The notes under the pieces are model-generated. The model had not been told where the DNA came from and ran no database searches. It saw nothing but the letters and a program-made list of their open reading frames with translations. A stretch of DNA of 64,000 bases from Cephalotus follicularis (Eukaryota > Streptophyta > Magnoliopsida > Oxalidales > Cephalotaceae). The DNA lies in NCBI GenBank assembly GCA_001972305.1, contig BDDD01001586.1, positions 62,001 through 126,000 of the forward strand, written 5' to 3'. Position numbers and translations under genes: made by a program. Shown piece by piece: positions 11,101-57,285 of the stretch (the stretch's first letter is position 1; each line of letters starts with the position of its first letter).

Positions 11101-14100
11101 ACAACACTCACGACTCTAACAATTGATCAATGTATCAATACAACGTCGAAGCAAGGCCGATAAGTGGTGGTGCCTAATGGAGGGATGGTAACGTGCGTCC
11201 ATTTTACCGACTTAGACTCACAACAACACTCATGACTCAAGCAATCAATCGATCAGTACAATCATTAAAACTGTTTTCAAACACTTGAACACCTCAAGTG
11301 AGACTCTAGCCAAGTGGCAATGTGAAAAGAAGTTGAAAACCAGCTTTAAAATAGTTAAAAACTCTTTTCAGTACATTAGGCGTCGTTGTCTTTGGTGAAA
11401 GACATCGACTCCTCTTTAAAACGGTGGAAAGATGTCGATGTCTTTGAAAGACATCGATGTCTTTCCCTATTTGGGTAGAGATCTGGCCGAAGACGTCGAT
11501 ATCCTTGGAGAAAGGCGTCGACGCTATTCAATAAAAATAGCCTGAGAATGCGCATCGATGTTCGACATCGATGTCTTTCCAGGGGAGAGACATCTCGAGG
11601 CAAAGACGTCGACGTCTTTGAAAGACGTCGATGTCTTTGTTGCAGAATCAAAGATACAACGCTCTAATGAGAAAGACATCGACGCCTTTGGGCTAAGTGT
11701 CGATGTCTTATCCGGGTAGTGTCGATTTTATGCAGAAAATAGGGCCAATCTCAAGTCAAAATCCAATTTAAAGCCATTCTTTGAAAACCAAAGTTTACAA
11801 TCAATTATTTGAGGTTAGTAAGACTAGTTACAACCTTCCAAATTCAATTTCAATAATTTAATCAACAATTAGGTCAAGGGTTTGCTATAAACCCTAAAAA
11901 CCCCAATTCACTCAATTCAATCATTCAATCAGTCCTTCAATCAATACAATCAATCATTCAATCAATACAAGAGGCAGGTAATTCAAGTAAGAAGTCCTAC
12001 CTATCACTGAAGCTTCAAAAGTCGAGCTTCCAATCACTCAAACCGCTGCTATGCCGTTCAATCACCAATCCACTACTTGCAATCACTGTCCTTGTCGATG
12101 GAGATGCAATCCGGGGCTGCAATGGTGGAAGATGGAAGCTGCTTAGATAGAAAGAGAGAGAGAAGGATAGAGAGAGAAGGATGAATGGTGAGAATTAGAG
12201 AAATGACAAGGAATTGACTTAAATAGTCGATTCGGTCAACTCTCCAAAACTCTGCCCAAAATCCCGACTATACATGCATGTGATCAATACAATATCAATA
12301 GGTATAAGAATACCTCAATTCAATACAGTTCAGTACGGTCCAATACGGTACGATGTATGCATGAACAGTACAAAAGGGAATTCGGGTCGTCACAGTAGCA
12401 TTCGAAGTGTGAGGAGAGAGTCTCATCAGACGAGCAAAGGTATCAGCAAGAGTTGGTACCACAGAGTCACCCAGCACTTGGGAACGAAACCCCTCAAACT
12501 CAGAACCCAGAGAACCCAAAAGACCCATAACAACCAACTGTTCGCGTTGTTCCTGCATCTTTGGTATATCAGTAGCAATAGGAAGTAGAACATTTAACTC
12601 CTCATACATACGTTGATAATCTGCTAAATAATCAGCCAAAGGACGATCCCCACGAGTCACCCGATAAAAATTTTGAGATAAAGAAAAAATACGAGAAATA
12701 TTGTCTTTTCCTGAATATAGAACAACTAAATAATCCCATAATTCTTTAACTGTATTCTGATAAGCCACAAGACTCAAAACTTGAGGCTCCATTGCATCCA
12801 ACATCTGTCCCAGAATTTGAGCATCCCTACACTCCCATACCTCATCAGGTACCTCTTTGGGTTGAATACCTGTCAAGTGACTTCCTAGTTGGCGCCCAAT
12901 GATGGCCAACCGCACCAGTTTTTGCCACTGCTGATAATTGGTAACCCCCTTCCGTTTAATACCCTAATCAGATTAATCCAAACATTACCACAACGTACAA
13001 GACGAAAATATCAAACTGCCAGGACAAAGCGTCGACGTGTAAACAAAAGCGTCGACGTGCATGTCAAAAGCGTTGGCGCTTAACATAGGCGTCGACGGTT
13101 TTGACATAGCAATAACCAAGATATAAAACAAAGCGTCGAAGAACAATACAGCAAAACACGACATAAGCGTCGACGTTTAACTGAAAGCGTCGGCGTTTAA
13201 GCCATAAGTGTCGACGGATAAACAAAACAGTCGACGCTTAGACATATGCATGGCGTTTAAAAACAGGTTTTATACACACAGGCGTTGACGCTTACTATAG
13301 GCGTCGACGCTTTGCGTCGAAAACATGAAAAACCCAGTATTATCTTTGTTGAAAACCATGAACAAAATCCCAATTTCTTAAACACAAGTCATAACAACAA
13401 TATGCAGGTTCAGAAACATGGCTTTTAAGCTTGTAAACACCTTTATACACATATCAATGCATGAACATATATTTTGCAGATTACATGAGTGCAATATCCA
13501 TGTCAAACATATTTTCTGGTTTCACAAAATAAAACAGTTTCTTCATGGATTAACAGTCGGATTTTGCAAAAAATAAACTTATGTTTAACGATAATAACAA
13601 TATATATGATGAAAATAAGATCAGTATAACATCATACCTGAAAATGATGAAAACATAGTGCAGAAAACGTTTGCAAGAGATGGTGTTTTCAGTTTTTGTA
13701 AAACATGCAGATGGTGCAATTTTTAAAGATGAAAAGTGACAAATCGTGTGTTCTAATGACAGAATCAGTGAAGTAAAAGCTCTTTCCATATGTACAAAAC
13801 GCGTCCAAACAAGTAAGGAAAACTTGGATGGCAAATTATGGCTAAAATCCTCTTTCCATAAGTGAGCCACCGTCCAAACAAATAAGGAAAGCCGACTTAA
13901 GCGTCGACGTTAATGTCGACGCTTACACCTTTAAAGCCAAAAGCGTCAATGTCAAAACATGGGCGTCGACGTGATCCACAACGCCAAAGCATCGATGTTT
14001 CTAATGAAGGCGTCGACGCTTAGCACCCAGAAAACAATAACAATGAATTTTTTTCAAAATAAAATCGGACGGTCTGAATACCATGTCATATAACAGAAGA

Positions 14101-17100
14101 CATAAACACAACATATAACGATAAACACGTAAGCATGGAAACGGGGTATTACATCCACCCCCCCTAAAAAAGGATTTCATCCCGAAATCATAATCACATA
14201 CCTTAAACAAATAAACGAGGGTATTGCTCCCGAATGTGCTCATCCAATTCCCATGTAGCCTCCCTCTCCGGATGATTCTTCCACAAGACCTTGACAAACG
14301 GAACGGTCTTGCTACGAGTGACCCGTTCTTGTCGATCCAGAATAGCCTCAGCCTCCTCATCACAAGATAAATCCTCCCAAATACTGTCCAAAGGATAGTG
14401 GACCACGTGCCGGGGATGATACTGATAGCCCCTCAACATAGACACATGGAACACATTATGGATATGAGATAACTGGGAGGCAAAGCTAACCGATAAGCAA
14501 CAGCTCCAACATTTTCTAGAACTTCAAAGGGTCCTATAAACCAAGGACTCAACTTCCCTTTCAATCCGAACCGACGGACTCCTTTCCACGGTGAAACCTT
14601 CAGAAACACATATTCACCTGCTTTGAACTCCAAGTTCCTCCGATGTTTGTCCGCATAACTCTTCTGTCGGGATTGAGTTGCCTTCAATCTTTTCCTAGCT
14701 ATAGTCACCTTATCAGTAGTGATCTGAACTAGCTCGGGTCCCTCAATAACTCTTTCTCCAACCTCATCCCAACATGTCGGAGCTCGACACTTCCTCCCAT
14801 ATAAAGCCTCGAAAGGAGCCATACGAATGCTAGCATGCCAACTGTTGTTGTAGGCAAACGCTATCAAGCTTAAATACTCATCCCAGGTGTGAAATGGGGA
14901 TCCCTAAGTGAAATGGGGATCCCTATCCGAAACAATGGATACAGGTGTCTCATGAAGTCTCACTATCTCCTGCTGGAAAACCTCCGCCAACCGGTCCACA
15001 GAGAAATTGTCTCGAATGGCCAAGAAGTGAGCCGATTTGGTCAATCAATCCACCACTACCCAAATAGCATTATTCCTTCTGAATGTCCTTGGCAAACCTG
15101 TGATAAAATCCATCGAAATACTCTCCCATTTCCAAACTGGAATCTCCAAAGGCTGTAACAATCCACTGGCTCGCTGATCTTGACATGCTGACAGACCAAA
15201 CACCTCCCAACATACTCTGCTACATCCCTCTTCATTCCATTCCACCAGAAATTTTCCTTCAGATCTCTATACATTTTTGTAGAACCAGGATGTATGGAGA
15301 ACGGGGAGCTGTGCGCCTTTGACAAAACGGCATCTCTGATTTCAAGATCAGCCGGCACGCATAACTGTCTACCCAACCAGATAACTCCATGCTCATCCAC
15401 ACGAAACTCCGACTGCTTACCTCCATCCACATTCTGGACTAAGGCCCATAATTCACCATCATTATTCTGAGCCGCCTTAATCCGAGATATAATAGTAGGT
15501 TCTATGTTCATCCCAGCAATGAAACCTCCAGAACCCCGAACAAACAAATTCAGATCCAACCGCTCCATATTTGATATCAATTGCGGCTGAGTAAGCAAAG
15601 CCACTACACTCCCAGAACTCTTCCTACTAAGAGCATCAGCTACCACATTAACCTTACCGGGGTGGTACTGAATATTCACATCATAGTCCTTCAGAAGCTC
15701 CAACCATCTTCTCCGACGTGTTCAACTCCTTCTGCATGAAAATATACTTGAGACTCTTGTGATCAGTGAAATATCACAAGTTTCTCCGTACGGATAATGC
15801 CTCTAGATCTTCAACGCAAAAACCACAGCTGCCAACTCAAGGTCATGTGTAGGGTAGTTTATCTCATGGGGCTTAAGCTGCCTAGAAGCATAAGCTATAA
15901 CATGACCGTGCTGTATCAGAACACATCCTAAACCCTTCTTGGAAGCATCCCTATATATCTGGTATCCACCTGACCCAGACGGCAAACGAAGAAGTGGCGC
16001 ATACACGACCATTCTTCAGCTTCTCAAAGATTGCTTCTCGTTCTTCATTCCACACAAACTTGGCTCCCTTCCTCATAAGCTGAGTCAGTGGTAAGGCTAT
16101 CGAGGAAAACCCTTCCATAAACCGTCTGTAGTAACCAGCCAAACCCAGAAAACTTCTTACCTCTGTCACTTTAGTAGGTCTCGGCCATTTGGTAATAGCA
16201 TCTACCTTGGCAGGATCCACACTGATACCTTCTGTCATAACCACGTGGCCCAAGAATGCCACCTATTCCAACCAGAACTCACACTTCGAAAACTTCGCAT
16301 GTAGCTGATTCCCCCTCAAAATACCTAGCACTATACGAAGTTGTTCTTCATGCTCTTCTCTTGACTTTGAATGCACCAAGATGTCATCGATAAACACAAT
16401 CACAATTCTATCTAGGAATTCGTGAAACACCTGATTCATCAAATCCATGAAGACCGCTGGCGCAGTGGTAAGTCTGAACGGCATCACCAGAAACTCGTAA
16501 TGCCCATACCGTGTGCGAAAAGCAGTCTTGGGGTATATCCTCATCCTTTACCCATAGCTGATGATATCCAGACCTCAAATCGATCTTAGAAAAATACCTC
16601 GCACCTTGGAGTTGATCAAACAAGTCATCAATCCTAGGCAAAGGGTATTTGTTCCTGATAGTAATCCGATTCAGCTCTCTGTAGTCTATGCATAGTCTCA
16701 TAGAACCGTCCTTTTTAACAAACAGAACCGGAGCACCCCACGGCGAAACACTCGGCCGGATGAAACCCCGATCCAACAATTCTTGCAACTGCTCCTTTAA
16801 CTCCTGTAATTCCAATGGTGCCATCCTATACGGTGTCTTGGATATAGGTCCCGCTCCAGGAATGAGTTTGATGGTAAACTCCACTTCCCGTTGCGGTGGC
16901 AATCCCGGTAATTCCTCCGGAAAGACATCAGAAAACTCTCTAACAACAGGATAGTCCTCAAGGCGAGGCTCATCCTTAGAAACATCTTTCACCACAGCTA
17001 AGAATCCCTCAGCGCCCTTAGCCACCAACTTCTGAGACTTCAAAGCAGAAATAATCTTTACACCCTTCTTCAAATGTGAACCCTGATAAACAAAATCAGG

Positions 17101-20100
17101 TCGATCCACATCCCCAAACAAACTTCTCCGAGTGTGACAATCAATCGTGGCATGATGGCGATCTAACCAATCCATGCCAAGAATCATGTCGAAGTCATGC
17201 ATATCGATCGGAAGAAGGTCCGCCTCACGAACTTTATCATCAAAAGAAATAGTTTAACAACTAAAATACTCAGATATCACAACAGATGTCCCCATAGGGG
17301 TCGAAAGAACCAGAACTGGATCCAGAGACAGAGATGGCACCCCAAGATGCCGAACAAAAGTCCTCGCTACCACAGAGTGAGTTGATCCAGTATCATATAA
17401 TACAAAAGCCATACGATTACCAATAGAGAGATAACCCGAAACTGTACCTAGAGCATTCGCTGCCTGATGAGTCGTCATTGCAAAGACTCGGCCACCTTCA
17501 TTGCGTTGTCCCGCATCTCCGCCATTATCTCTCCTCTCCTTCGCACGAGGGTCTGGACAATCTATAAAGCGATGACCCTGCTGTCCACACAAAAAGCAAG
17601 CCCCAGTCGCCTTGTAACAAATCCTCACTGGATGTTCGTTCCCACAAGAATCACATAGTGCAATCTGAACATTGGGGTTACCCCCACCACTAGCTCCCTG
17701 AGCTTGCCTCTGCTCATTCCCTTGCTGATGCTGCTGTCCTCCACCCTTGTTCTGATTATCATTCTTCTTTTGCTGCTTACCATCTTGGCCCCTATTCCAC
17801 TGGCCGCTTTGACCCTTGTTTTGCTGTCCAGAATTTTGACCTTGCACATCACTTCTGTTACGCTTCCTCTCACCTTCTTGTCGAGCAGCCTGAAAGTCTA
17901 ACCTCTCCATCTCTATGTTCTTCGCAGCATTTGCAACCTCCGATACATCGGCAAATCTCGAGTTTATCAGCTTACCCCTGAGCTGATAGTGTAACTTCCA
18001 TTTAAACTTCTCAGCCTGTTCTGCTGCCGACCCCGCTGCAGGTCCAGCAAAGCCCGCCAATCTGGTGAACCTGGCTAAGAACTCGGTGACCGATTCACCC
18101 TCCTTCTGTCTCGTCATAACAAACTCTCTTGAATAAGCCTCTTTATCAGCAGTGGGAAAATACTGCTGATAAAAGACTTCACAGATTTAGGACCATGATA
18201 ATGCATCAACAAATCCTCCACCTGTAACACCCCCGGACGGCGGGAGTCGTCACAGGGTCATATCAAATATAACATTACTTATTAAATCATAATACATAAT
18301 AATCCATGTTTCTGACCACTAAACATAACATAAGGATCACTTTCCTAGGGATCCTAACACAAGAGGTGGTCATCACTCGTCACACTTTCCCCCGCTGCTC
18401 CTGTAAACCTGCCGCATGGAAACAAAAACGCGGCTGAGCAAACCTCAGTACGGATAAAGGAAATAAAACAGTAAACGATAATTTGAAAGCAGTAAAATTT
18501 CAATAATAACATATCAGAAATCATAGTAATTAGAACAATTGCATAATTGTAAAATCACATTTGTACTTTCATAAATTCCATATAACTTCGGAACAATTAC
18601 GCAATCATTTCATAAAATCAATTACGAATCATACTGAGCCACATACATATCACATAACATAAATTTGGCAAAGGAGGCGCTAATTCCACATGCCCACTAG
18701 AGTTGAAGTGTACGGCACTACACAAGTCAATTCTCACATACACATGTCCGATCACACCTCGGACCACATATCTGAATTCACCTCAGATCACATAAACTAA
18801 AATCGATTCATACGCCTCTATCTTAAGTAGCGGATCCACAAATCCACCTCATGGGATTTGTTCATACACTCAGAGACGCCGTAGTCTAATCACACTGCTA
18901 CGGAAGTGTCACGTCCCCGTGCCAGGCCCACGACGTGCCTATGGTACGCCCCATAGGTGGGTACAATACTCAGTATTTTAAAATCATTGATTTATCAAAA
19001 TCAATTTAAAATCACATAAAATATGTTTTCACACAACATATTCGAAAACCGTTCACAACGGTATCATAACATATCATATCATAACATATCGTATCAAAAT
19101 ATATCGTATCATTTCATATCGTATGGATAAAGTCAGAATCATTTAAAATGTCAAACCAACTTATATTCGAAACATATCAAAATCATAAAACATCGTTGAT
19201 TTCATAAACGAAGATGCTTAGCAAAACAGTTTCAGTTCGAATATCAGATAGCCAAAGAACAGAAAATTCCGTACCTTATGCGCTTACAAGGTACTTACGA
19301 ATAGGCGATCTAAACGGAATCCACTTGAAGCACAACAATCTAAAAGGCATTCAAAAACATACGTATAAGAGTCTAAAACACATCAGAAGTATAAAACAGA
19401 CTCTTAACAGTGTTGGAAAAGATTCGGATCGATTCGAGGATCAAACGAATGAAAACAATTGAAAACAGTACATTCCAGGGCAAAACAGTTGACTAAAACA
19501 GGGCTCCAGTCGACTGGGGAAGCAAGACAGTCGACTATTCAAATGGTCCAGTCGACTACTCAATTAAAAGTGCAGGCAGTCGACTGTGTTCATCCCTCCA
19601 GTCGACTACACAACCAAGGCAGTCGACTGCATTCATGTGGCAGTCGGCTACTCAACCATTCCAGCCGACTGTCCACAGAGACTGCCGACTGTTCTGGGCG
19701 ACAGAACAGTTGGAAATCGACAAATTCACCACTGAAAATGGTTCAAATGGTTTCTACATTAAACTAGAGACATATGGACACAAATATATGATTATATATG
19801 ACTTGTAGGTGACATGGAAACACATAATTGACAAGAAAACGATTCAACAGTGGGTTAACTTACAAAAGGAAGCAAAGAGACAATGGATGTATATGTCCAG
19901 ATTCTGTCTCTAATCGATTATAGATGTTGTAAAACAAGTTTATGACACATCTATGAGTATAAAACGTGTTGACAATCATATTAACACAATAACATGTTTA
20001 GGCAGGAATCAATGACCCAAAGACACCAAGAGCACAAAAACTCAAAGTATGCCACTAGAACAAGATTATCACTAGAGAAGACGAATCTACTAACCTGTAA

Positions 20101-23100
20101 TGATTCCCAGAACACAAGAACAGTAGAAGAAACACTAGCACACACTCACAATTCGGCTGTGAACAAAAACAGAGGAAGAAGAATACAAAACCATAACATA
20201 CTTAGACATACATAGCAAACTAAGAGAATTCAATCCAAAGAAATAACTAAAGGATCGAATTTACCTCTTCTGACTTTGAAGAACGAATTACACAGCAGCT
20301 TGTTACACACTAACAAGCCAGAATCGGCAGTGGCTTGCAAGAAAGATGAGGGCAACATATAAAATGGCAAAGGCACTTTATGAAAGGAAAAAGGAGGAGA
20401 CACAATTTGACCAAAAGGGGAAGAATGGAGGATTTTCAGGAATTTGAAATAGGAAAAGGGAGACTTAGCATGTGATATTGATGGTGGGAAGAAGGAATTA
20501 CGGGAAAGAAGGAGGAAAGTAGGAAGAAAATGATAAAATAGGGAAAAAGGAAAATAAAGAATTAATAAAAAAAGGAATAAAGAGATTTTTAAAATAAAAG
20601 ATAAATAATTTGTTTTTAATAAAATAATTTTGGATTATAATAAAATAAATAAAACCCAAACCCAATATAGCATAACATACCCAAAATTTCGGATTGGTAT
20701 CAGTCAGCTCAATTCACATAAACCCAAATCATAGGGCAACCGAAATTTTAAAATTAAACAAAATTAAAAGTCCGAAAACACATATAAAATCCGTAAAAAT
20801 ACATTTACGAACGAGCAGGGTATTACACCACCCTTAGCTATCTTCAATGTCTTCCACCATCTCTGGGCATCACCCTCCAGCTTATACGCAGCCATTTTCA
20901 CCTTCTGATTCATCACTGCATCCAAGCACATCAAAAATTTTCTCCAAATGAGCAATCCAGTGCTCAGCCTCCACAGGTGTTGGCACTGAACTAAAGGACT
21001 GCGGTCTCTGCTTTTGGAACCTCTCAAGCCAGACATAAACAGGAGTGTTAGGTCGGTCCCCAACTCCCCTATCCGCATGAGCATCAACTGGTACATTCTC
21101 CTTCGCCACTTGCTCACGACGACCTTGTCCAGCATTTTGCCGGTGCATCACTCGATTCACTTCCTGAGCCACTGCCTGTCTCACCAACTCGCCCACAACA
21201 GGCTCATTTCTGACTTCTTCCCGAGCCCCAGCTGGTGCAGTTCTTCGAGGGGTGTTCCTTGTTCGTACCATCTACGCAACAGAAACCAGGGCAAGATAAA
21301 GACAAAAAGAATTAGAATGTCAAAACAAAAGACATATCGAAAAGATCGTAACGAAAAAGCCCTAACCCAAAGTCTACCCGATCTCACAGGTCAAACCTAG
21401 GTAAGTCTTCTAAGGAACAAAACCTACTCTCTGATACCATAATTTATAACACCCCAGAAGGTGGGAGCCCTTACAGGTCATACTACAGAACACATCTAAA
21501 CATGAACTCAAAGCATAATCTTATCTTTATTCAAAATACGTGGTGGTCTAAGACAAAATCCAAAAACATATCATAATCTGAAAACATAGTCTGAAAAACT
21601 TTAACGTAATCCGAATCTAAAACCATAATCTGAAATCAAATACTGTTCAAAATGTTGGCCCAAACATGATCATAACCCTACTGAAAACACAAACAGACCA
21701 ATCTCCTAGATGATCCTTAGACATAGGTGGATAACTCTCATCACACATTTCCCCCATGCTCCTGATAACCTACCGCATGGAAAACAAAAACGGGGTTGAG
21801 CAAACCTCAGTACGGATAAGGAATGTAAAACAGTAAACAGACATTTAAAAGATAAACCAAAGTATCTGAACTTCAAAATCAGAAAATAAAACAATTAAAT
21901 ATTCTTTAATAATATAAAGCAGAATATTTAAATAAAACAGTTATAAAATCTTCATAACCTTCCGAAAAGCATAGAATCAAATTTCATAACTTTATCTGAT
22001 TTCATAATTCCATAACAGAGATCTGATGTACATATATATAAGTGTAAGGGGTTCGCAAGGCCAACATGCTCTGACGGAAAGGCGTGTACGGCACTACACA
22101 ATCAATCCCAAATCTGAATCTGAATATGATAATAACTAAAGTCGACTCATACGCCTCAAAAGGATCCACACCCTACCCTCATGATATATATATATATATA
22201 TAGATAGATAGATAGATAGATAGAGAGCGAGAGAGAGAGAGAGAGACGCCGTAGACCGATCACACCGCCACGGTAGGTGTCATGTCCTTCGTGCCAAAGG
22301 AACATGCCTATGAGACCTCATAGGTAAGTTTTTTTTCTGTATGTTATTATGCCAAAAATATTGTTTTGTTCTAAAACAATTTAAAACATAAACATATTTT
22401 CTAAACAATTTCTGAACATATCTGAAATCAAAATCTTATCCGTATCTGAAATTAACATACTTCCGAAAGTGGAAGCCATGTCCATTTAACATATTTTCGA
22501 TAGTGAAAATTATGTTCGTTTAACATATTTTCGATAGTGAAAATCATGCACAGATTATAAAATCAGTAATATTAACCTTAGTAATAAAACAGATTTTACT
22601 CAAAATAAAACCGAATATCCAACAACGAAAAATCCATTTCAATAAAATCGGAGAATAGCCAAGAATAAGAAATATCCGTACCTTGGCCGATCGAAAACTA
22701 AACAAATCCGAATACGAAACAAAAACAAACAAGGAGTACTCTAATCTCCACCACGTATGATATTAATACCCTAATCAGATTAATCCAAACATTACCACAA
22801 CGTACAAGACGAAAATATCAAACTGCCAGAACAAAGTGTCGACGTGCATGTCAAAGCGTCGGCGCTTAACATAGGCGTCGACGGTTTTGACACAGCAATA
22901 ACCAAGATATAAAACAAAGCGTCAAAGAACAATACAGCAAATCACGACATAAGCGTCGACGTTTAACTTAAAGCGTCGACGTTTAAGCCATAAGCGTCGA
23001 CGGATAAACAAAACTGTCGACGCTTAGACACATGCATGGCGTTTAAAAACAGGTTTTACACACACAAGCGTCGATGCTTACTATAGGCGTCGTCGCTTTG

Positions 23101-26100
23101 CGTCGAAAACATGAAAAACTCAGTATTATCTTAGTTGAAAACCATGAAGAAAATCCCAATTTCTTAAACACAAGTCATAACAACAATATGCAGGTTCAGA
23201 AACATGGCTTTTAAGCTTGTAAACACCAGTATACATATATCAATGCATGAACATATATTTTGTAGATTACATGAGTGCAATATCCATGTCAAACATATTT
23301 TTTGGTTTTACAAAATAAAACAGTTTCTTCATGGATTAACAGCTGGATTTTGCATAAAATAAATTTATGTTTAACGATAATAACAATATATATGATGAAA
23401 ATAAGATCAGTATAACATCATACTTGAAAATGATGAAAACACGGTGCAGAAAACGTTTGCAAGAGATGGTGTTTTCAGTTTTTGTAAAACATGCAGATGG
23501 TGCAATTTTTAAAGATGAAAAGTGTCAAATCGTGTGTTCTAATGACAGAATCAGTGAAGTAAAAGCTCTTTCCATATGTACAAAACGCGTCCAAACAAGT
23601 AAGGAAAACCCTGATGGCAAATTATGGCTAAAATCCTCTTTCCATAAGTGAGCCATTGTCACACCCCGTTTTTTCCCATAGAGACAACATATAAGGCGGT
23701 AAGGCAATCAACACAAGATAAAATCCAGCTCATGCAAATTTACCAATAAATAAATTTCTCGATAGCGGAAGCATTCATGTAAAAGCTGAATTTAAACATA
23801 CATCACGCATCCCATACTACGTGATGCCCAACAAGTTTATAATAAAACCCAACCTCATTGTCGATCGCCCAAAAACGGAGCGTGAAAATACAGTACGAGA
23901 TAAAATAAATCATGTTACAATAATCCAATTAACATGACCAAAGTTCATTAACTCAATACAGGAAATAAGAGAAACAACTTGGTCTTCTCCATAGGTCTCC
24001 TTGCAATGCTCCATATCAAACCCACTCCATCAATCTGTTACAGTAGAGGGTTAGCCTTTGTCCTCGCTCGGCTAAGTGAAAAACTCATAAGTACAGTTCG
24101 AGGTATATGATAATGAGTATCATGAATGAATGCATTATGATGCAGTATGACATGTAATTTTTCACAATAATTATATCTCCGTATATACATATAAAAATAT
24201 ATGCATGTTCACAGTACAAGTATAACCTCATAAGCTATATCAACACAAGCAGTAAGTATGTCCCAAAAGGAACCAGACAAACAAGTCGTCATAACCGTCG
24301 CCACCTCCTGGCCCCAACGTCATGCACTTTTACCCCATCCCCGTTTGCGAACGGTTTTGGAGCAAGTCCTCCGTATGTTGCTTAGCACGGCGGCTAAACC
24401 AACAGCAAGTTACTAGCACATCGGCTGAGTAATCAATAGGTACAAGCATTGCACAGTACAAGTCAAGCAATAAAATATATTTAATTGATCAAATATATTT
24501 GTTTAAAATATATTACTCCGTTCACAAGTTGTGATAAGTTATAAAACTTAACACAATACATTTGATTGTATAATCAATCCTTAAAAACATTTCTCCGTCT
24601 TTGGAAATACTTTCCGATCATTTCGAAAATATATAAATTCATATGTTGACAAATATACATGTTCGCACAATACATTTGATTGCATAATCAATCCTTTAAA
24701 ACATTTCTCCGTCATTGGAAAATACTTTCCCAGTCATTTCGAAAATACATATATTCCTATGTTGACAAATATACATTTTCGTACAATAATGATTATAATA
24801 ATCATACAAGCTTTTCAAAATGGTTAACACTTTTGAAATCAACCATAATGCAATTCATAGTAATAATGCAAACATATGCTCAGAATGCATCTAAGATCGT
24901 TTCTAGAGTCGTTTCGGGTCTAGCGGGTCCCATTCGAGTGAAATTCCATTAAACAGGGAGATAGGCGTCGATGTCTATTCCTAAGGCGTCGACGTTTTTT
25001 ACCCTAAGGCGCCAATATTGCGAGCAGTCATTCCCAGGCGTTTTGGGACCAAAGACATCGATGCTTCTCCAAAGACGTCGATGTCTTTATGGTACCAGTA
25101 AGCATCAGTTCGCGAATCTTGATTCTAAAGGGGTAGAATCCGGCCCTTTAATCCTTCATGTAGACGAATCTCACCCTCTCAACGTGTAAGGCACTCTACT
25201 GGTTATCAGGGAATATAACCAGAACATCATTTCATGCATAAAACATGTAATCCAAAGGGCAGCTCACCAACAACAGTAAACACTACTGTTCTGCAAAACC
25301 CAGAAAAGGCGTCGATGTCTTCACAAAGACATCGATGTCTTTCGCATTCACACACGAAGGTATAACATTACTGTTCTATAATGCCCAGAAAAGGCATCGA
25401 TGTCTTTACTCAAGCATCGATGTCTTTCACATTTTCGCACGAAGGCATCGATGTCTTCATGTAGACGTCGATGTCTACCCAACCCAGAACGTTTTCTCCA
25501 TAAAATTAACACACTAATCCAATATCCAATTCATCCTTTACACAACCATTTCACATATTCATGTAATCACACATGCATGGTTACTCCATATTTCACAGTA
25601 ATCATCACAGAAATCCAGAAATTACAATCCACCCATTAACATGCGACTCATCAATGGCATTCATTATCTTAGAACTCAAAAAGCATGTATAAGAATCATC
25701 ACTTCCCCTACCTTGTTGTTCCAAGTTAGGAACTGGAAAGTCCACCTCTTTGAGTTCCCAGGTTCTGGCCACAGCAGCTCCAAGATCCTCTCAGCAACTG
25801 CTACCCACGAGCTCCAAGTTCTAGCTCCAATCAAGCTCAACAATGGTGGCTCTCTCTCTTCCTCACACTCACTGTTTCTCTTTCTCACTGTTTTTAGCTG
25901 AGAGAGAGAGGAAGGAAGAGGTGTTTTTATTAAGGCAGAGACCCTCCCCTCCTCTCTTTGCTTCACAGATAACCACACCTTCATGTGCTCACCCTCCTCT
26001 GGTTTTGGCCCTTTTCTCTTTTTTCCCTTCTGCAGGTTGCAGATGAAGATGGTATATCCTCTTGCATGCACCAGGTGAGGGGCACGTTTTGAGCATGCCT

Positions 26101-41880: not shown

Positions 41881-42260
41881 CAAAGCGTCGGCGCTTCACT
41901 TTCAAGCGTCACCACTTATGGGCTTGTTCTGAGTTCTTCAACTTCCTCCTAGACTAAATTGCTGACGCTTCATTTTAAAGCATCGCTGCTTTAGGGTCTC
42001 ATCTAAGTCAACTGAAACACTTGACTTCAAAGCGTCGAAGCTTACATTTAGGGCGTCGTCGGTTGCACCAACCGTCGCCGCTTTCATCCAAGCGTCGTCG
42101 GTTAGAGGAATTTGTCCAAATCCAAAACTCTCTGTTTTTAATCGGTGCCAAGAGGGCTCTAGGCGTCAATGGTTACCTTCAAAGCGTCGCCACTTTAAGT
42201 GAAAAAGTCAGTGCTTTAGACATCTTCGTCAATTTTTAACGTTTGAAATTGACGCTTTCA
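41881..42260. repeat. Phased palindrome array, AAGCGTCGACGCTT type, decayed
   Basis: Mostly doublets 19-21 bp apart: 41888/41909, 41962/41983, 42035/42056/42075/42095, 42166/42187/42208. Units are GCGTCGGCGC, GCGTCACCAC, GCGTCGAAGC, GCGTCGTCGG and similar, often one half-site changed. Confidence 0.82.
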
Positions 42261-42547
42261 ACATGACACTCATCCAAAACAAATAGTCAATTTCGATTTT
42301 CTTCCGAGGGCACTGCCCTCGAGCCCCTGCCCGCTGTCTGGGCAGCGGGACCCCGAGTCCGCTCACCGGGGAGAGGAATGTAATAACCGTAAATTCTATT
42401 CATGTACATTGTAATAATGATTAATAAAATGTGCACTCATTCGAATTTAATGTCCAATTATTATAATTTGTGATTGGTATTTGCTTGGGACGAATGGAGA
42501 TACAATTTGGTGAAAATCAAACTTAAGAAACCCTAAAACAACCATTG

Positions 42548-42680
42548 ACAGTCGACTGCCACAGGGAGGAAGTCGACTGCCTGGTTTATGAAGGGGCAGC
42601 CAACTGTCACAGGGGAGCAGTCGACTGCCTGATGCGTGTTGTGGACAGTCAACTTGCCAATGCATCCAGTCGACTGGATC
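42548..42680. repeat. Palindrome cluster 1 in LTR D, CAGTCGACTG type
   Basis: Core starts 42552, 42573, 42600, 42621, 42649 and 42670; steps 21, 27, 21, 28, 21. Counterpart in the 3' LTR at 48259-48391, where two units altered here keep GTCGAC. Confidence 0.92.
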
Positions 42681-43729
42681 GGTACAGAACAGGTGTCTGT
42701 GCATGCCTGTTAAACTGAACCAAGAGGAGATTGCATGGTGGGCAGGTGTCACACGAGACAGGAGCTGCCAGAGCATGCAAAAAGGCATGCTTGCATGTCC
42801 TCTATTCCCTCTGCAATTTGCAGACCTGCAACCTACAAGAATCAAAAGAAAGAAAGGTGAGAAAGAGGTGCATGTGAGAGAGAGGGAAATGTGAGAAAAG
42901 TTGAGTAGATGAGCCTGGCGAATTCTAAGCTCCTAAGACCTCTATATCAACTGTGCATGAACTGAAAGAGAGTGTTAGAAACACTGAATTTTGAAGAGAG
43001 TTGTTAGAGGATTATTGAAAGCTTGAATTGGGGATTTGGTGTGGAACTCAAAGACTTGGAAGCTTTAGACTTCTCCTGGTAAGTTCCAATTCGAGCTTCC
43101 TGCTGTTATTGTAATCTGTCTAGAATGTGACTAGGAATGCTAATATCTCCTGCTAAATGGTTAAGATTAGCAGATTCTAGGATGGAATTAGAAATAGTAT
43201 AAAAGAGATTAAGAACATGGACATGAAGCTTTGAGGATTATATAACTCAAACTCGAATTGAACCTGTTGGTTAGTTGTATTATGCCTCCTGATTCTCTTA
43301 AATGTATATATGCATCCTCTGTCCACACATTAATCCGAAATTGAAAGATGCATGACATAGAGCTCCAAAGAGAAAGTGGCAAAATGGAAGTAAGACTTAT
43401 GGAATTGTGATAAGCTGCTGTGTAATAGGTAATTGTAACTGATAGCTAGTTAACCTACTGATTAGGTGAATGGACCTCTAAACATGCATGCATAGATTAT
43501 TCTTGCTGGATTCGAAGGATTGTTGGGAAAAGGCTTTGGAAGCTTTAAAGAGAAAGATCAAACCCAATTGATCTTGGGATAGCGATTGAGGTAGGGGTAA
43601 CGATATGTTATGGGAGATATGATCATGCATATCATGTATGTTTACTTTTCTGCATTATTGCATGTTTGATTGGATTGGTATTATAGATTGAAAATTGTAA
43701 ACTGCTACTGCCTGCATTTTCTAGGCAGA

Positions 43730-43845
43730 AGCAGTCGACTGCTCTTCATGGCAGTCGACTACTCAACCTATCCAGTCGACTGCCAAGGCAAAGCAGTCGA
43801 CTACTCAACCAAGGCAGCCAGCTATTCTTGAGGTAGCCGACTGTC
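43730..43845. repeat. Palindrome cluster 2 in LTR D
   Basis: Core starts 43735, 43755, 43776, 43797, 43818 and 43837; steps 20, 21, 21, 21, 19. Counterpart at 49441-49556. Confidence 0.92.
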
Positions 43846-45167
43846 CTGGATAAAATTGGCTAATATAGGTCTGTTTGGACCTCAATTTTGAATGTAATCA
43901 ACTTGGCCTCCATTTGGATGACTAGAACAATTAATCCTGGCCTCATAGACAATTACATTCCTAAATTAAACAATGTACACACTCCTTGTGAGAGTTGCTT
44001 ATGAATTGACTATGTAATGCTATTCTTTGTGAATCCTTGCATTACTACTGATTTGTGTTATTGTTACTGAATATGCTACTGTCATATTAGTATAAACTGT
44101 TTTGGTGTCATTTAACACCAATACCACTTGCATTTCTATAATTGAAACCAACTATGGGCTATGTACCCAAATTATGATATCAACTATCATTTTCAATGAA
44201 ACCTATTGTTTAAAAGAAATTATTGATTTTCTCCTAAGAGATATACCATCTGTTTTGTTTTCCCATACTGGAAACCACTATTGAATTGATATCATTTTCC
44301 CTCGAAGAGATGTACGATAAATGACTTGTTATATCTTTCTAAAGAAACCAATTTTATATTGCATATTGCTGACATATGTAATATTATTATTGAATGCTTG
44401 TATTGTTTGTGCTTGTTGCCGGTAGTCGAGTGATGACTGTGGTCACCGACTACGGTAGGGATCCTAGGAGCCAGGAGTTGGCCAGGAGATCTCCAAAACT
44501 TATCTGCATGGTAGATCTTATTTTTTAAACTACCCGCCAATGCCGGTAGTATATGTTACATGTTCTATCATCCTCGGAGCGCAGGAGATAGTTAGGTAGT
44601 GCACAGTCGGAGCTAGGAGTTAGCGGCATGTGAGACCCAATTTGATGGATGAATTGATTGTACCCTTGTGCGGTATTCTTGCATATGGATTGTTTATGGC
44701 CACTTGGCATGATTGCTTATATATTGGCTCAATTAAATGTTATTTGATATAAACTGTCATACATGTTGCATTCATACATTCCTTAGCATACTTTATCTTC
44801 CTACTTAGCCAAGTGAGGACAACGGCTAACCCCTACAATTTCATATTAAGCGAAGACGTTGAAGATTGCTGCTGAAGCTTGGAAAGCTTCTACTTTCGTT
44901 TTATGGTTGTTATTTTCATGATGTCGTACTGTTTTGTATTGAGTGGTTCATACCGCGTTAATGTTGTACTTCCGCTTGTAAGGATAATTTATTTGAATTG
45001 TAACCGCACGTAGTATGGGATGCGTGCAGATGACTTATGTTATATTCTGTCTTATTGAATGCTTTCGCATATTATTTTATGATTTGTTAAATGAATGCTG
45101 GAATATATTCAATTACTGATATCACCACATATGCTTGTCTAACGTGAATGGAAAACGGGGTGTGACA

Positions 45168-48089: not shown

Positions 48090-50878
48090 TGTAATAACCG
48101 CAAATTTAATTCGTGTACATTGTAATAATGATTAATAAAATGTGCACTCATTTGAATTTAATGTCCAATTATTATAATTTGTGATTGGTATTTGCTTGGG
48201 ATGAATGGAGATACAATTTTGTGAAAATCAAACTTAAGAAACCCTAAAACAACCATTGACAGTCGACTGCCACAGGGATGAAGTCGACTGCCTGGTTTAT
48301 GAAGGGGCAGCCGACTGTCACAGGGGAGCAGTCGACTGCCTGATGCGTGTTGTGGACAGTCGACTGGACAATGCATCCAGTCGACTGGATCGGTACAGAA
48401 CAGGTGTATGTGCATGCCTGTTAAACTGAACCAAGATGAGATTGCATGGTGGGCAGGTGTCACATGAGACAGGAGCTGCCAGAGCATGCAAAAAGGCATG
48501 CTTGCATGTCCTCTATTCCCTCTGCAACTTGCAGACCTGCAACCTGCAAGAATCAAAAGAAAGAAAGGTGAGAAAGAGGTGCATGTGAGAGAGTGGGAAA
48601 TGTGGGAAAAGTTGAGTAGATGAACCTGGCGAATTCTAAGCTCCTAAGACCTCTATATCAACTGTGCATGAACTGAAAGAGAGTGTTAGAAACACTGAAT
48701 TTTGAAGAGAGTTGCTAGAGGATTATTGAAAGCTTGCATTGGGGATTTGGTGTGGAACTCAAAGACTTGGAAGCTTTAGACTTCTCCTGGTAAGTTCCAA
48801 TTCGAGCTTCCTGCTGTTATTGTAATCTGTCTAGAATGTGACTAGGAATGCTAATATCTCCTGCTAAATGGTTAAGATTAGCAGATTCTTGGATGGAATT
48901 AGAAATAGTATAAAAGAGAGTAAGAACATGTTCATGAAGCTTTGAGGATTATATAACTCTAACTCGAATTGAACCTGTTGGTTAGTTGTATTATGCCTCC
49001 TGATTCTCTTAAATGTATATATGCATCCTCTGTCCACACAATAATCCGAAATTGAAAGATGCATGACATAGAGCTCCAAAGAGAAAGTGGCAAAATGGAA
49101 GTAAGACTTATGGAATTGTGATAAGCTGCTGTGTAATAGGTAATTGTAACTGATAGCTAGTTAACCTACTGATTAGGTGAATGGACCTCTAAACATGCAT
49201 GCATAGATTATTCTTGCTGGATTCGAAGGATTGTTGGGAAAAGGCTTTGGAAGCTTTAAAGAGAAAGATCAAACCCAATTGATCTTGGGATAGCGATTGA
49301 GGTAGGGGTAACGATATGTTATGGGAGATATGATCATGCATATCATGTATGTTTACTTTTCTGCATTATTGCATGTTTGATTGGATTGGTATTATAGATT
49401 GAAAATTGTAAACTGCTACTGCCTGCATTTTCTAGGCAGAAGCAGTCGACTGCTCTTCATGGCAGTCGACTACTCAACCTATCCAGTCGACTGCCAAGGC
49501 AAAGCAGTCGACTACTCAACCAAGGCAGCCAGCTATTCTTGAGGTAGCCGACTGTCCTGGATAAAATTGGCTAATATAGGTCTGTTTGGACCTCAATTTT
49601 GAATGTAATCAACTTGGCCTCCATTTGGATGACTAGAACAGTTAATCCTGGCCTCATAGACAATTACATTCCTAAATTAAACAATGTAAGCACTTCTTGT
49701 GAGAGTTGCATATGAATTGACTATGTAATGCTATTCTTTGTGAATCCTTGCATTACTACTGATTTGTGTTATTGTTACTGAATATGCTACTGTCATATTA
49801 GTATAAACTGTTTTGGTGTCATTTAACACCAATACCACTTGCATTTCAATAATTGAAACCAACTATGGGCTATGTACCCAAATTATGATATCAACTATCA
49901 TTTTCAATGAAACCTATTGTTTAAAAGAAATTATTGATTTTCTCCTAAGAGAAATACCATCTGTTTTGTTTTCCCATACTGGAAACCACTATTGAATTGA
50001 TATCATTTTCCAACGAAGAAATGTACGATAAATGACTTGTTATATATTTCTAAAGAAACAAATTTTATATTGCATATTGCTGACATATGTAATATTATTA
50101 TTGAATGCTTGTATTGTTTGTGCTTGTTGCCGGTAGTCGAGTGATGACTGTGGTCACCGACTAAGGTAGGGATCCTAGGAGCCAGGAGTTGGCCAGGAGA
50201 TCTCCAAAACTTATCTGCATGGAAGATCTTATTTATTAAACTACCCGCCAAAGCCGGTAGTATATGTTACATGTTCTATCATCCTCGGAGCGCAGGAGAT
50301 AGTTAGGTAGTGCACAGTCGGAGCTAGGAGTTAGCGGCATGTGAAACCCAATTTGATGGATGAATTGATTGTACCCTTGTGCGGTATTCTTGCATATGGA
50401 TTGTTTATGGCCACTTGGCATGATTGCTTATATATTGGCTCATTTAAATGTTATTTGATATAAACTGTCATACATGTTGCATTCATACATTCCTTAGCAT
50501 ACTTTATCTTCCTACTTAGCCAAGTGAGGACAACGGCTAACCCCTACAATTTCAGATTAAGCGAAGACGTTGAAGATTGCTGCTGAAGCTTGGAAAGCTT
50601 CTACTTTCATTTTAAGGTTGTTATTTTCATGTTGTCGTACTGTTTTGTATTGAGTGGTTCATACCTCGTTAATGTTGTACATCCGCTTGTAAGGATAATT
50701 TATTTGAATTGTAACCGCACGTAGTATGGGATGCGTGCGGATGACTTATGTTATATTCTGGCTTATTGAATCCTTCCGCATATTATTTTATGATTTGTTA
50801 AATGAATGCTGGAATATATTCAATTACTGATATCACCACATATGCTTGTCTAACGTGATTGGAAAACGGGGTGTGACA
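48090..50878 (+). mobile_element. 3' LTR of element D
   Basis: Same length as the 5' LTR. Differences near the start include GTAAATTC/GCAAATTT and CATG/CGTG; within the palindrome cluster the 5' copy reads AACTTGCC where this reads GACTGGAC. By eye about 1-2% divergence; not counted in full. Confidence 0.92.
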
Positions 50879-51001
50879 CTGAACCCCCGAACCCCCAGAG
50901 CGTGAGGGTCATATCACGAGTCCTTTGAAATATTCGTCAACCTCAAAATAGAAATCATATTTCCATAAATAATATCTCTAATGAAAATTCTGGTCATTAC
51001 A

Positions 51002-51683: not shown

Positions 51684-53961
51684 TGTAACGACCCCGACCC
51701 GAGCTCGCTAATAGCTCAAAGTGAACTCCGAGGATCAGTTGCGTTACGTTGGGTGTGAAACGTTACATCCTTTGGTACTATTCTCTAAAAGTACACTGCA
51801 TCATAAACTCATATCTTGCAACATCATACATAATCTTAAATTAAAACTTTACACATAATCATCTTATATAAAGATGTCATAACCATATCGTTGGTCTACA
51901 TTACACAGGATCATTCTTCTACATAAACATATAATACAGCGGAAAACTTTGTTCTTATTACATATCAAAACATTAATGCAAATATCATCGCATAGCCTTT
52001 CTTTCACAAAAACTCCTTCTTAAGAGCTTCCTCTAAGCTCGTAATCTCCATCCATTTCCTGAAAACATTTTATTTGAAAACAACATTGAAAGGAATGAGC
52101 TCAAAATAGCTCAGTAAGGTGTTTTTATAGTAAACACATTTCATCATAACAATTTTTTTTCTAGTTAATACATATAAGTAGAACATTTCATAAAATATAT
52201 TACTTTTCTAGTTAATATCATAACTAGATCATTTTGTAAACATGAAATTCATAAAAACCTTAATGAACCCTTTACACCGCTTCACCGGGGCATTGTGCAC
52301 TCCCCGACTACTATCCTTACATCACATGCATGTCCGCGAGCACTTTACGCTCCATTAACATTGAGCCTTTCGCTCCATTCCCCTTGGATCGCAATCCAAG
52401 GGTGGTTCATTCATCATATACTTTGAGTGATCAGCTCAAAGCATTCATAAAAATCATTTCATAGCATTTTTTTCACAATTCATAAACCTTTCTCTTCATT
52501 TGAGTAATTGACTCAAATGAGTTCATAAAACAGTTTTGCATAGCTTTACAAAAACTGATAATTCATATAGAAATAAGAATTTTCAGAGAAAACTTAAAAC
52601 ATAAATATTAAAGTAGACATCTTTAAGAATTCAGAAAGCTCAAGATCATAACAGTTGGTTGAGAATTGAATCCACTATGAATTTTTGAAAGTGGCTAGTT
52701 CCATAAGAAAACAGGGCATGAGAAGTAAAATGAATCATTGATTCTCATCAAGAATTTGACATAATTTCAAGATACATAAAACATAAAAGTTGAAGAGGAC
52801 ATCTTAAGGGTTTCAAAATGTCCAACCATTTAATTTTTCATCCAGAAACGAGCAAGATATGATTTAAAGAAGTTGCTACATAATCTAGGAATTAAACAGT
52901 ACCCAAACAGCAATTTAAAACATTGATTTTCATCAAGAAATCGATAGAATCTTAAAACATGTAAAGAATAAAATTTAAAGAGGACATCCTAAAGTTTCCA
53001 GAACATCCAACCATTCAAAAATTCATCAAGAATTGGGCATGATATCAATAGAACAACTTCTGTAAAATTTGAAAGCAAAACAGGGGATGCTTTGTAGAAA
53101 ATGGGTATAGAATTTCCTTACTTTGCTTTAGAATTTCTTTCTCTTTTGTTCTCCACGAATTCTCCTCTTCACTCTCAGCAGGAACACTTTCTTTCTCAGC
53201 CAAAATGACTGAGTTCAGCCCTCTTAACCATTAAATAGAAGGATTAGTTGGGAGGCAAGGCTTCCCCCCTCTCACACAACTCAATTCCCTCTCTTGGCAG
53301 CCCATGTGATCAAATTTCAGCCAATCCAAGTGTTTACACCTGTTAGATCACCTGATAGCATCTCATATCATCCTCCCCTGGCCTGCCACGTGTCCAAAAT
53401 TAAAGATTTTTATGCACAAAATGCCAAAAACTCAGATATTGCATTTTGTCTGTAGCTCAAAGCGTCGACGTTTTCTCTCTAAGCGTCGCCGGTCACGGGC
53501 TTGACCTGAGTTTTTCACTTCTATCCCGACTAAAGCACTGACGCTTTCTTACAAAGCGTCGCCGCTTTAAGTCTTCATCCAGGTCAACAGACACACTTGA
53601 CTTCAATGCGTCGACGTTTAAAATTAGGGCATCGTCCGTTGCCCAAAGTGTTGACTCTTTAAATAAAACCGTCGGCGCTTTAGACATTTTTGTCAACTCT
53701 TAGCCTTTTAGATCGACGCTTTCAACATGACATTCATCCAAAAAAAATATCCAATTTAAATTTTCTTCCGGGGGCGCTGCCCCCCGAACCCCTGCCCGCT
53801 GACCGGGCAGCAGGACCCCCCGTTAACTCACCGGGGAGCGGAACCCCCAAACCCCCCGAGTGTAGGGTCATACTACGGGTCCCTTGAACTATCTGCCAAT
53901 TTACACAATAGCGATCATTTTCCATAATTAAATATATTTAATGGAATTTTGGGTCATTACA
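51684..53961 (-). mobile_element. Solo Tekay-type LTR inside copia C gag
   Basis: 2,278 bp, TGTAACGACCCCGA to GGGTCATTACA, perfect 5-bp duplication CTATC (51679-51683 and 53962-53966). Minus orientation. GC-rich block at 53765-53880 as in 32512-37391. Confidence 0.95.
53457..53725. repeat. Phased palindrome array, AAGCGTCGACGCTT type
   Basis: Doublets at 53465/53486, 53538/53559, 53611/53632 and 53651/53672, each 21 bp apart. Lies 236-504 bp from the LTR start. Confidence 0.88.
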
Positions 53962-54847: not shown

Positions 54848-57285
54848 TGTAACACCCCTGAATGGTGAGAGTGCTTACAGAACATAAAACAGATCTTATA
54901 AAAAACTTAATAGAACTTATCCGAAGCTTAACAAAACATATGCTTAATTTTATTCAAATACGTGGTGGTTCAATACTGAAATCAAAACAACATAATCCAA
55001 GTATCAAAACAAAATTTCCCAAAATCCAAATACTGTTTCCAAAATACTGGTCTACACATGACCATCAAATAACAGAAACACAAAAGTACCAAACAACATA
55101 AGATCCTTAGACATAGGGTGACACCTCTCATCACACATTCCCCCGATACTCCTGATAACCTGCCGCCTGGAAACAAAAATGTGGCTAAGAAAACCTCAGT
55201 ACGGAAAAAGGAATGTAAAACAGTAAACGGTAAACAAATATCTAAACTTTAAAATAAAAAAAAATAGCATGGTTAAATATTCTTTATAATGTAAAACAGA
55301 ATATTTAAATAAAACAGTTATAAAATCTTCATAACTTTCCGAATAACATAGTATCATAATTTTCCAAATAATATAAATTCATAATTCATAACTTTATCCG
55401 ATTTCATAATTCTATACAGAGATCTGATATACATATATATAAGTGCAAGGGGTTCGCGAGGCCCACATGCCAAACGGAACGACGTGTACGGCACTACACA
55501 ATCAATTCCCAAAATATGAATCCGATAATAACTAGAGTCAACTCATACGCCTCAACCTGATCAATACCCTACCCTCAGGATATATATAAAAAGAGACGCC
55601 GTAGACCAATCACACCGCCACGGTAACTGTTATGTCCCCCGTGCCAAAGAACATGCCTATGAGACCTGATAGGCAAGTTTTTCTCTATATGTCATTATTT
55701 CAAAATATTGTTTTATTCCAAAACAATTTAAAACATAAACAGATTTTCTGAACATTTTTCGAACATATCATATCATATCATATCATAAGATCAACATACT
55801 TCCAAAAGCGAAAGTCATGTCCGACTAAATCAAATCAGCATACTTCCTAAAGTGAAAGTCATACTCGTTTAACATACTTCGATAGTGAAAGTCATGTTCA
55901 TTTAGTAAAAAATCAGCATACTTTCGAAGGTGAAAGTCATACCCGTTTAATTAACATACTTTCGATAGTGAAAATCATGCTCAATTTATAAAATTAGTAA
56001 TATTTAACTTTATTCATAAAGTAATAAAACATATTTTATAAAACCGAAATAAATATCCGATAACGAAAATCCGTACATATTCATGAACCAAAGGAGTATC
56101 AAATAACGAAGAGTCCATACTAAAAGCAATATTGAATCCATTTCAATAAAACCAGAGAATAGCCAAGAACGAGAAATATCCGTACCTTAGCCGTTTAAAA
56201 CCCAACAACAATAAGAACGAATCAAGGACACGTACAGAATCACCCTAATGTCACAACAAAAGCTTTGGAAACCCTAACAGATCATTCCAATTTAAAATAT
56301 CACAAACCGACGCTAAAATACAAATTGACAGAGGAAAGCGTCGATGTTTGTGTGTAAAGCGTCGGAGCTTGAAAAGAAAGCGTCGGCGCTTATACAAACA
56401 TTAACACAAAGCGTCGACCGAAAACATTACAAAACACTACGAAAGCGTCGACGCTCAAACTAAAGAGTCAACGGTTAAGAACTTAAGCGTCGTTATGAAC
56501 AACAAAACAATCTACACTTAGAACCCATGCAAGAGTAAAACAGTTATGTACACATGCATAAGCGTCGACGGTTAAATCGAAAGAGTCGGCGCTTAATGTT
56601 GAAACATGAAAACCAGTGGCAGTATAAACATAGTTTATATACAATAATCCCGTTTTCTTCATACAAATCTTAAAACACTGGTATTTAGATTATAAAACAT
56701 GGCTCTTATGATAGAAAATATCAGTATAACATTTGTAATGCAATCGCATGTCGGTTACAGGTTACTTATATCAAATAAAACTTGTTTTCTGGCATCGCAC
56801 ATTCACAACAGTTTTTATGAATCAATCGACAAGTTACGAACAATATAATGACTTATATTCAATAAAAATAGTAACATATGATCATAACAAAACCAGTAAA
56901 ATGACATACCTCCTGATGACAGTGCGAAAAGGTGATGAAAATGTGTAAGCAAAATGATTGTTCTGCTTTCGTAAAGAATGCAGAAGATGGTTTATAAAAC
57001 GTGCAAGTGGTGGAGTTTTAAAAGTGATGAAGCCGTGTGTTTTCAAAATGGTAGAAATGGTGAGTTAAAGACCTTTCCATATGTGTGAAATGCGTTTGAT
57101 AAAGTAGGAAAATCGGATAACCAAAATAGGGAAATAATCCCTCTTTCCAAAAACAAAACCACCTTCCAAAACAAATATGGAAGACGACTAAAGCGTCACG
57201 GGTTAAGAATACGTGTCAGCGCTTAACTCTTAAATCGTCGACGACTATCACAAGGCGTGAGTGCTTTACCTACTTATCAAAACAA
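54848..57285 (-). mobile_element. 3' LTR of Tekay element B, start truncated
   Basis: Ends (plus strand) TGTAACACCCCTG at 54848, same family as element A's LTRs (CGTGGTGGT, GACGCCGTAGACC, CACACCGCCACGGTA shared). About 160 bp of the LTR start, the polypurine tract and the end of pol are deleted at about 57285. Confidence 0.85.
56335..56600. repeat. Phased palindrome array in LTR B
   Basis: First cores at 56341, 56362 and 56383 (21 bp apart), then GCGTCGACCG, GCGTCGACGCTC, GAGTCAACGG, GCGTCGTTATG, GCGTCGACGGTTA and GAGTCGGCGCTTA. A smaller group lies at 57190-57265. Confidence 0.85.

Follow-up and report, generated by a model that had tools for sequence, protein, structure and literature searches.

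The long terminal repeats (LTRs) of several Ty3/gypsy retrotransposon families in a 64,000-bp stretch of the Cephalotus follicularis genome (assembly GCA_001972305.1, contig BDDD01001586.1, positions 62,001 to 126,000; hereafter, the window) carry arrays of palindromes with a TCGA-like core, and the observation extends beyond the window. Aligning the window to itself resolved families A (two copies), B, C (three copies), D (a 5' LTR and a truncated 3' LTR), E (nested in D), F, and a partial G; this LTR annotation was made in the present analysis, and two of its regions are provisional. Interior pieces of D and F match the Ty3/gypsy-type RVT_1, RNase H, integrase H2C2, and chromodomain families of Pfam, with a chromodomain following the integrase in D (piece 14203-14523; Chromo E=1.4e-6, which passes the cut-off) and a corresponding B piece at E=0.0023, which fails it. 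Judged by these predicted domains, a chromodomain among them, the host elements are Ty3/gypsy chromoviruses; their placement in the Tekay/Del clade is a proposal of the first-pass annotation. Element B (interior 45168-48089), which matches gag, protease, and the integrase end, and in which the start of a reverse transcriptase is recognizable by eye in piece 46807-47382 without a Pfam match, looks like a young non-autonomous chromovirus. The best protein matches were mostly to Asteraceae (best 120 of 7,995 scored candidates).

The arrangement is illustrated by the 5' LTR of B (42379..45167, + strand; 2,789 bp, 98% identical to 48090-50878, with an exact primer-site word at 45171). Specifically, its array 1 (42546..42678, + strand, 175-293 bp from the LTR start) has centres at 42553, 42574, 42601, 42622, 42650, and 42671, separated by 21, 27, 21, 28, and 21 bp, the sites at 42601 and 42650 being degenerate, and its array 2 (43729..43845, + strand, about 1358-1460 bp from the LTR start) has centres at 43736, 43756, 43777, 43798, and 43838, the last degenerate; the 3' LTR (48090..50878, + strand) carries both arrays as well. 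In family A, copy 2 (18223..20827, - strand) has array centres at 19490-19686, and copy 1 (33963..36490, - strand), with its array about 970-1230 bp from the LTR start, is inserted into a C LTR. Family C comprises copy 1 (32512..37394, + strand, in pieces 32512-33962 and 36491-37394; sites 32775-33073), copy 2 (40286..42378, - strand, with a remainder at about 50881-51001; sites 41889-42188), and a solo LTR (51684..53961, - strand, with the 5-bp target duplication CTATC), in which the doublets 53466/53487, 53539/53560, 53612/53633, and 53652/53673 each have a gap of 21 bp and several sites are degenerate. The D 5' LTR (21440..26815, - strand, in pieces 21440-23655 and 26545-26815) holds array 1 at 26585-26676 and array 2 at 22860-23091, and the truncated D 3' LTR (12956..14153, - strand) has sites at 13033-13305 and 13905-14014. 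The E LTR nested in D (23657..26545, - strand) carries 16 sites, including degenerate ones, which form eight doublets 19-21 bp apart; the D-like (66%) 3' LTR of F (54849..57265, - strand, limits approximate) has sites at 56342-56587 and 57197-57239, several of them degenerate; and the G array (11429..11687, sites 11436-11680; - strand, with strand and LTR limits provisional) consists of E-type palindromes. Three C/D-type sites (39366, 39433, and 39445, within 39359..39452, no strand assigned) lie outside the annotated families. With degenerate sites counted, there are 10 sites in A copy 2, 10 in the B 5' LTR, 8 in the C solo LTR, 13 in the D 5' LTR, 16 in E, 12 in F, 8 in G, and 5 and 6 in C copies 1 and 2, respectively.

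Read in the sense orientation, the distance from the LTR start to the beginning of array 1 is about 140-310 bp in families B, C, D, and E. Array 2 occupies positions of about 835-1580 bp in A, B, D, and E; in F, the start of which is truncated, it is found at about 680-925 bp. Both arrays are found in B, D, E, and F, only the first in C, and only a mid-LTR one in A, a correction to the first-pass annotation, which had put the first array 130-600 bp from the LTR start in most families. Between the two array positions, a TATA-like motif and a leader with a splice-donor-like end can be seen by eye, more clearly in A, C, E, and F than in B and D; hence, the arrays may flank the promoter, and array 2 might lie inside a 5'-leader intron. 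The splice-donor-like sites after the leader, also read by eye, are CTG/GTAAGT in B, AAA/GTAAGG in C, AAG/GTAGGG in E, and GAG/GTATGT in F. Downstream of array 2, about 1075-1385 bp from the start, the D, F, and A LTRs have the word AAGGTACGGAT in common, and an invariant ATTGAGGTAGGGGTAA occurs in four B-type LTRs (positions 1207-1222 of the B LTR).

All 18 core positions named in the first-pass annotation hold the core within one base, 8 as exact GTCGAC and 10 at least one base off. Perfect 10-bp palindromes with a TCGA core number 34 in the window, versus 3.9 expected (40 shuffles, maximum 10). Other centres are over-represented too (TATA, 18 versus 5.7 expected; ATAT, 15 versus 6.3), an excess owed in part to one simple AT repeat near 22190. 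A looser palindrome scan of the window returned 128 sites, 111 inside LTRs (31,068 bp) and 17 outside them (32,932 bp), and the CpG observed/expected ratio is higher in the sites than in the remainder in 11 of 11 LTRs, which partly follows from how the sites are defined. The flanks around the TCGA core fall into CAG-, AAGCG-, and AAAGAC-type classes that differ between LTR families.

The spacing of the sites is equally distinctive. When each family is represented by a single copy, 33 of the 58 gaps between neighbouring sites in the window's arrays measure 19-22 bp, and a second gap, of 27-28 bp, recurs. Without any palindromy criterion, RTCGAY in the window LTRs (98 sites, the B 3' copy excluded) gives 182 pairs within 150 bp, of which 31 are 19-22 bp apart, none 14-18 bp, and five 23-30 bp. 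Across the whole genome (1,577,397,061 bp), the count of exact AGTCGACT pairs is 108,824 for spacings of 19-22 bp (341 for the reversed pattern, used as control), 2,657 for 13-18 bp (control, 14), and 19,649 for 23-31 bp (control, 40), or about 27,200, 443, and 2,180 pairs per base of spacing, respectively. Among 100 matches listed for the 19-22-bp class, 65 are at 21 bp, 25 at 20, 9 at 22, and 1 at 19. In the 23-31-bp class, 42 of 50 among the matches listed are 27-28 bp apart, and a CACG/CGTG word (for example, TGCGTG or CACGTG) stands in 21 of 38 distinct 27-28-bp spacers among the matches listed (shuffles, mean 5.5 and maximum 13; the copies are related). The 21-bp spacers are unlike this, and the longer gap with its word, of which 42622-42650 is the window instance, is a possible composite module. 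The pairs at 13-18 bp are mostly of one 13-bp type among the matches listed; this doublet at exactly 13 bp (AGTCGACTCGCTGAGTCGACT), which recurs across contigs (e.g., C1:172866-172886), is probably a different repeat family.

Further, AAGCGTCGACGCTT occurs 18,108 times in the genome, versus 15 for the reversed word. A 200-kb sample of the same genome (20 stretches of 10 kb, at places fixed before inspection) holds 236 RTCGAY sites, with 45 pairs at 19-22 bp (29 at 21), 4 at 14-18, and 1 at 23-26. The main part of this signal comes from AGTCGACT, whose 77 sites form 30 pairs at 19-22 bp; seven same-composition palindromes outside the array classes have 0-6 sites. By comparison, CGTCGACG has 9 sites, versus none for one same-composition control. 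The sample contains 27 clusters, 15 inside stretches alignable to the window LTRs and 12 not; of the latter, some adjoin such LTRs, two (in L135) are without homology, and at least two are chance-like (L129 at 3832, L141 at 4424). Of the 13 stretches homologous to a chromovirus LTR or to pol, 11 contain a cluster (the exceptions being L128 and L133); of the seven others, six contain none, including one with copia homology only. The arrays are real, genome-wide for the AGTCGACT class and the exact AAGCG word, and show signs of constraint. A scan of viral contigs with AAAGACATCGATGTCTTT returned three contigs, with no array in the stretches read, and GTCGAC triplets at 19-22 bp were found there in at least 120 stretches.

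Such periodicity could arise if a palindrome-bearing unit of about 21 bp had duplicated and then drifted, as an ordinary decaying tandem repeat. Tandem duplication does occur: TRF reports a 21-bp repeat in B, its units matching at 71%, an 85-bp duplication in E includes a doublet, and copies differ by whole array blocks (a block of two additional sites in one A-type copy, another extra block in B). However, units aligned on their centres are conserved for about 7 bases on each side and are near chance identity beyond, and the inner spacers of 54 distinct 21-bp AGTCGACT pairs (from 100 matches listed) share a pairwise identity of only 0.24-0.33, while the same period recurs in families with unrelated spacers. 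Between related LTRs, moreover, it is the sites that exceed the LTR average and not the spacers. In B-type LTRs (the B 5' LTR versus L136, L144, and L132; 67-76% identical), identity is 0.915 in sites, 0.684 in spacers, and 0.731 in the rest (block test, P=0.0012), with the first two B sites uncounted, the block that holds them being absent from the other three; in A-type LTRs (A copy 2 versus L136, L140, and copy 1, the last a copy of the same family), it is 0.845, 0.704, and 0.745 (P=0.013); and between D and F, in an alignment possibly anchored on the sites, it is 0.747, 0.480, and 0.726. Spacers are therefore less conserved than cores; equal conservation of the two was what the first-pass annotation had said would make the arrays an ordinary tandem repeat, and its preference for selection on phased sites is supported. 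We regard the decaying repeat as very unlikely and largely refuted by the site-over-spacer contrast. The D and F LTRs also hold other tandem repeats (22452-22548 and 55793-55993), with 34-bp and 78-bp units bearing ACTTTCGATAGTGAAA-like inverted repeats.

The variants of the core give some indication of what would be recognized. Among one-base variants lying 19-22 bp from a perfect core (window, the 20 stretches, and L124-L127, homologous copies included), CCGA/TCGG is most frequent (57), followed by TCAA/TTGA (28), ACGA (10), GCGA (9), TCCA (6), and TAGA (6); at three control offsets, CCGA numbers 1-5 and TCAA 5-7. Between LTR copies, pooled per-site rates are higher for CpG transitions (0.056) than for T-to-C changes (0.027), with the two A copies as an exception. 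Thus, CCGA exceeds TCAA, the product of CpG decay, although CpG transitions are faster, which suggests a half-site of R(T/C)CGAC. This resembles the CBF/DREB core, RCCGAC or (G/a)(T/c)CGAC, for which our literature search gave no confirmation, and a DREB/CBF (AP2/ERF) factor is a tentative candidate for the reader of the arrays.

Alternatively, the arrays could act as transcript hairpins, either for packaging or as a source of small RNAs for host silencing, as has been proposed for the palindromes of maize Sirevirus elements, which attract small RNAs (cited in PMC10760457). Sixteen array pieces, some overlapping, fold with z-scores of -0.86 to -6.50, where four control pieces gave +2.05, -1.43, -1.42, and +0.52, although palindromes must fold better in any case. 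Stems kept on the sense strand should, however, favour G.U over A.C mismatches, whereas the dyad pairs of the window LTR families include 92 A.C and only 42 G.U on that strand (other, 106; Watson-Crick, 576); with one copy per family, the counts are 67 and 28, A copy 2 and C copy 2 leaning the opposite way. This speaks against sense RNA hairpins, and hairpins leave the 20-22-bp spacing unexplained. Strand-biased mutation was considered as a source of the A.C excess and rejected, CpG change being unbiased in six LTR comparisons (CG/TG, 60; CG/CA, 63). Hairpins as the primary function therefore seem unlikely to us; the arrays may still attract silencing as a by-product or form stems in antisense RNA. 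Covariation between palindrome arms (P 0.01-0.12 in six families, 1.00 in D; pooled P=0.008 for pairs 4-7 and 0.44 for pairs 8-10) was set aside as evidence, because symmetry had partly guided the choice of sites and the pooled test draws on stray sites as well as on those in arrays.

The arrays also appear to have moved between LTR families as cassettes. The spacers of the A array match those of B array 2 when one of the two is inverted with respect to transcription (0 of 1,000 shuffles) but not directly (P=0.66), and some are shared with B array 1 without inversion (P=0.013), yet the LTRs are otherwise of different kin, A being related to D and F (in the second half of A) and B to E (at the B end). 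The palindrome code likewise does not track LTR kinship, being shared by A and B. That an inverted cassette was retained is what an enhancer working in either orientation would allow. Taken further, with the VANC arrays as a model (PMC5735166, PMC10398659), the cassettes might be exchangeable and orientation-free, their codes read by fast-changing paralogous dimeric factors for which the families compete or from which they escape, in an arms race over more than 10^5 doublets; we hold this extended scenario to be doubtful. Another explanation is that the arrays are anti-silencing targets of the VANDAL/VANC kind, in which a matching protein recognizes family-specific noncoding arrays and clears repressive marks. 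Dense family-specific motif arrays, gained and lost by repeat formation in noncoding transposable element DNA, are indeed similar (PMC5735166), and the flank classes here vary between LTR families. VANC motifs are, however, short and of one orientation, with the word "palindrome" absent from the main text of that report (PMC5735166), and no extra DNA-binding protein family was found in 18 scanned open pieces of the window, where the elements are broken and 5 of 20 B-interior pieces were covered. An anti-silencing target of this kind is, in our judgment, improbable.

We consider it probable, from the layout and conservation of the sites, that a dimeric or two-fold DNA-binding factor uses the arrays as cis-acting sites, set in doublets or runs two helical turns apart. 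The binders would most likely belong to a single family of host transcription factors and would drive or open the chromovirus LTR promoters. Each palindrome would comprise two overlapping R(T/C)CGAC half-sites, and two sites 20-21 bp apart would share one face of the helix and could both be filled, so that the working unit would be the doublet or run rather than the single site; protein binding, the dimeric state, and the activation of transcription are the steps that we infer here. Several observations weigh against this proposal. The claim in the first-pass annotation that centres lie two helical turns apart stands for doublets and runs but not for gaps above 24 bp, as 23 such gaps (one copy per family) are not significantly helical (Rayleigh p 0.11-0.23, periods 10-11); a pooled R=0.30 at 10.5 bp was rejected because multiples of 21 and homologous copies contribute to it. 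In the 200-kb sample, CGTCGACG forms only two pairs at 19-22 bp and CATCGATG (5 sites) none, so that genome-wide phasing is established for AGTCGACT only and is mostly window-based for the other two. The core-variant counts draw on homologous copies, and a weaker preference for the same variants appears at 41-43 bp (CCGA, 29; TCAA, 22). In E and G (n=24), 9 cores are ATCGAT, 7 ATCGAC, and 5 GTCGAC; ATCGAT is not predicted by the DREB core, and these families fit the R(T/C)CGAC half-site only in part. The palindromes have a shared polarity, more than a strictly symmetric dimer would require; in D, the arms pair less beyond the core than expected from shuffles; and the B-type comparison omits two sites. 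Finally, within families, sites decay about as fast as the rest or faster (sites/rest: C copy 1 versus solo, 0.798/0.900; C copy 2 versus solo, 0.786/0.794; D 5' versus 3', 0.940/0.956; B, 0.966/0.980), with the A copies as a mild exception (0.917/0.894). Given that sites are unprotected after insertion, the constraint acts on the transposing lineage and not on inserted copies.

How these arrays relate to known systems can be seen at several levels. Tnt1 and Tto1 carry repeated U3 cis boxes that bind host stress factors, in few copies, and resemble the present arrays in this respect; we know of no family-wide palindrome code in either. The VANDAL/VANC system (Hosaka et al. 2017, PMC5735166) shares dense family-specific arrays in noncoding transposable element DNA with repeat gain and loss, but concerns a DNA transposon, a motif of one orientation, and a known element-encoded binder. 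The closest known kind appears to be the palindromic repeated motifs (RMs) arrayed in the LTRs of Sirevirus, a Ty1/copia group (Bousios et al. 2010, PMC2829016), so that the first-pass description of a form unknown in the literature was too strong. Both are palindrome arrays in plant LTRs, CpG-rich, in the upper LTR half, with a core common to many families and differing flanks; maize Sirevirus elements likewise have palindrome clusters in the LTR cis-region (via PMC10760457), although these are read there mainly as host-recognized secondary structure, whereas the mismatch polarity here opposes sense RNA stems. At least eight palindromic copies, as in Sirevirus, are present in A copy 2, the B 5' LTR, the C solo LTR, the D 5' LTR, E, F, and G, and fewer in C copies 1 and 2. 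Sirevirus clusters start 200-400 bp into the LTR, upstream of TATA, and ours at about 140-310 bp (B, C, D, and E), with motifs resembling a TATA box recognizable by eye in A, C, E, and F; the Sirevirus array bounds a CpG island, where the present measure is site CpG enrichment alone, partly definitional. The two differ in core, 12 of 13 Sirevirus RMs having one common CGG-CCG core with differing flanks and a TCGA centre occurring in two (Vitis CGGTCGACCG and Tnd-1 ACAATCGATTGT; PMC2829016), while ours is R(T/C)CGA, centred on TCGA with CAG, AAGCG, or AAAGAC flanks. They differ further in clade, as D and F have Ty3/gypsy domains and the copia-only stretch L134 is without a cluster, and in geometry, with 20-21-bp phasing and a second array further in, where the portions of the Sirevirus account drawn on here give no fixed spacing. 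Clade and core thus set the arrays apart from the Sirevirus kind, and the working likeness stands. Our literature search, with most subscription journals outside its coverage, turned up no earlier description of TCGA arrays from Ty3/gypsy LTRs. If our reading is correct, more than 100,000 exact doublets may sequester a host factor and spread regulatory sites genome-wide, and the strict two-turn geometry, being indicative of a protein complex, would make the reader identifiable. Palindromic LTR arrays as such were already known from Sirevirus, and what is new is the clade, the core, the phasing, and the scale; such arrays would then not be specific to Sirevirus but shared by a second superfamily, there with a strict two-turn geometry.

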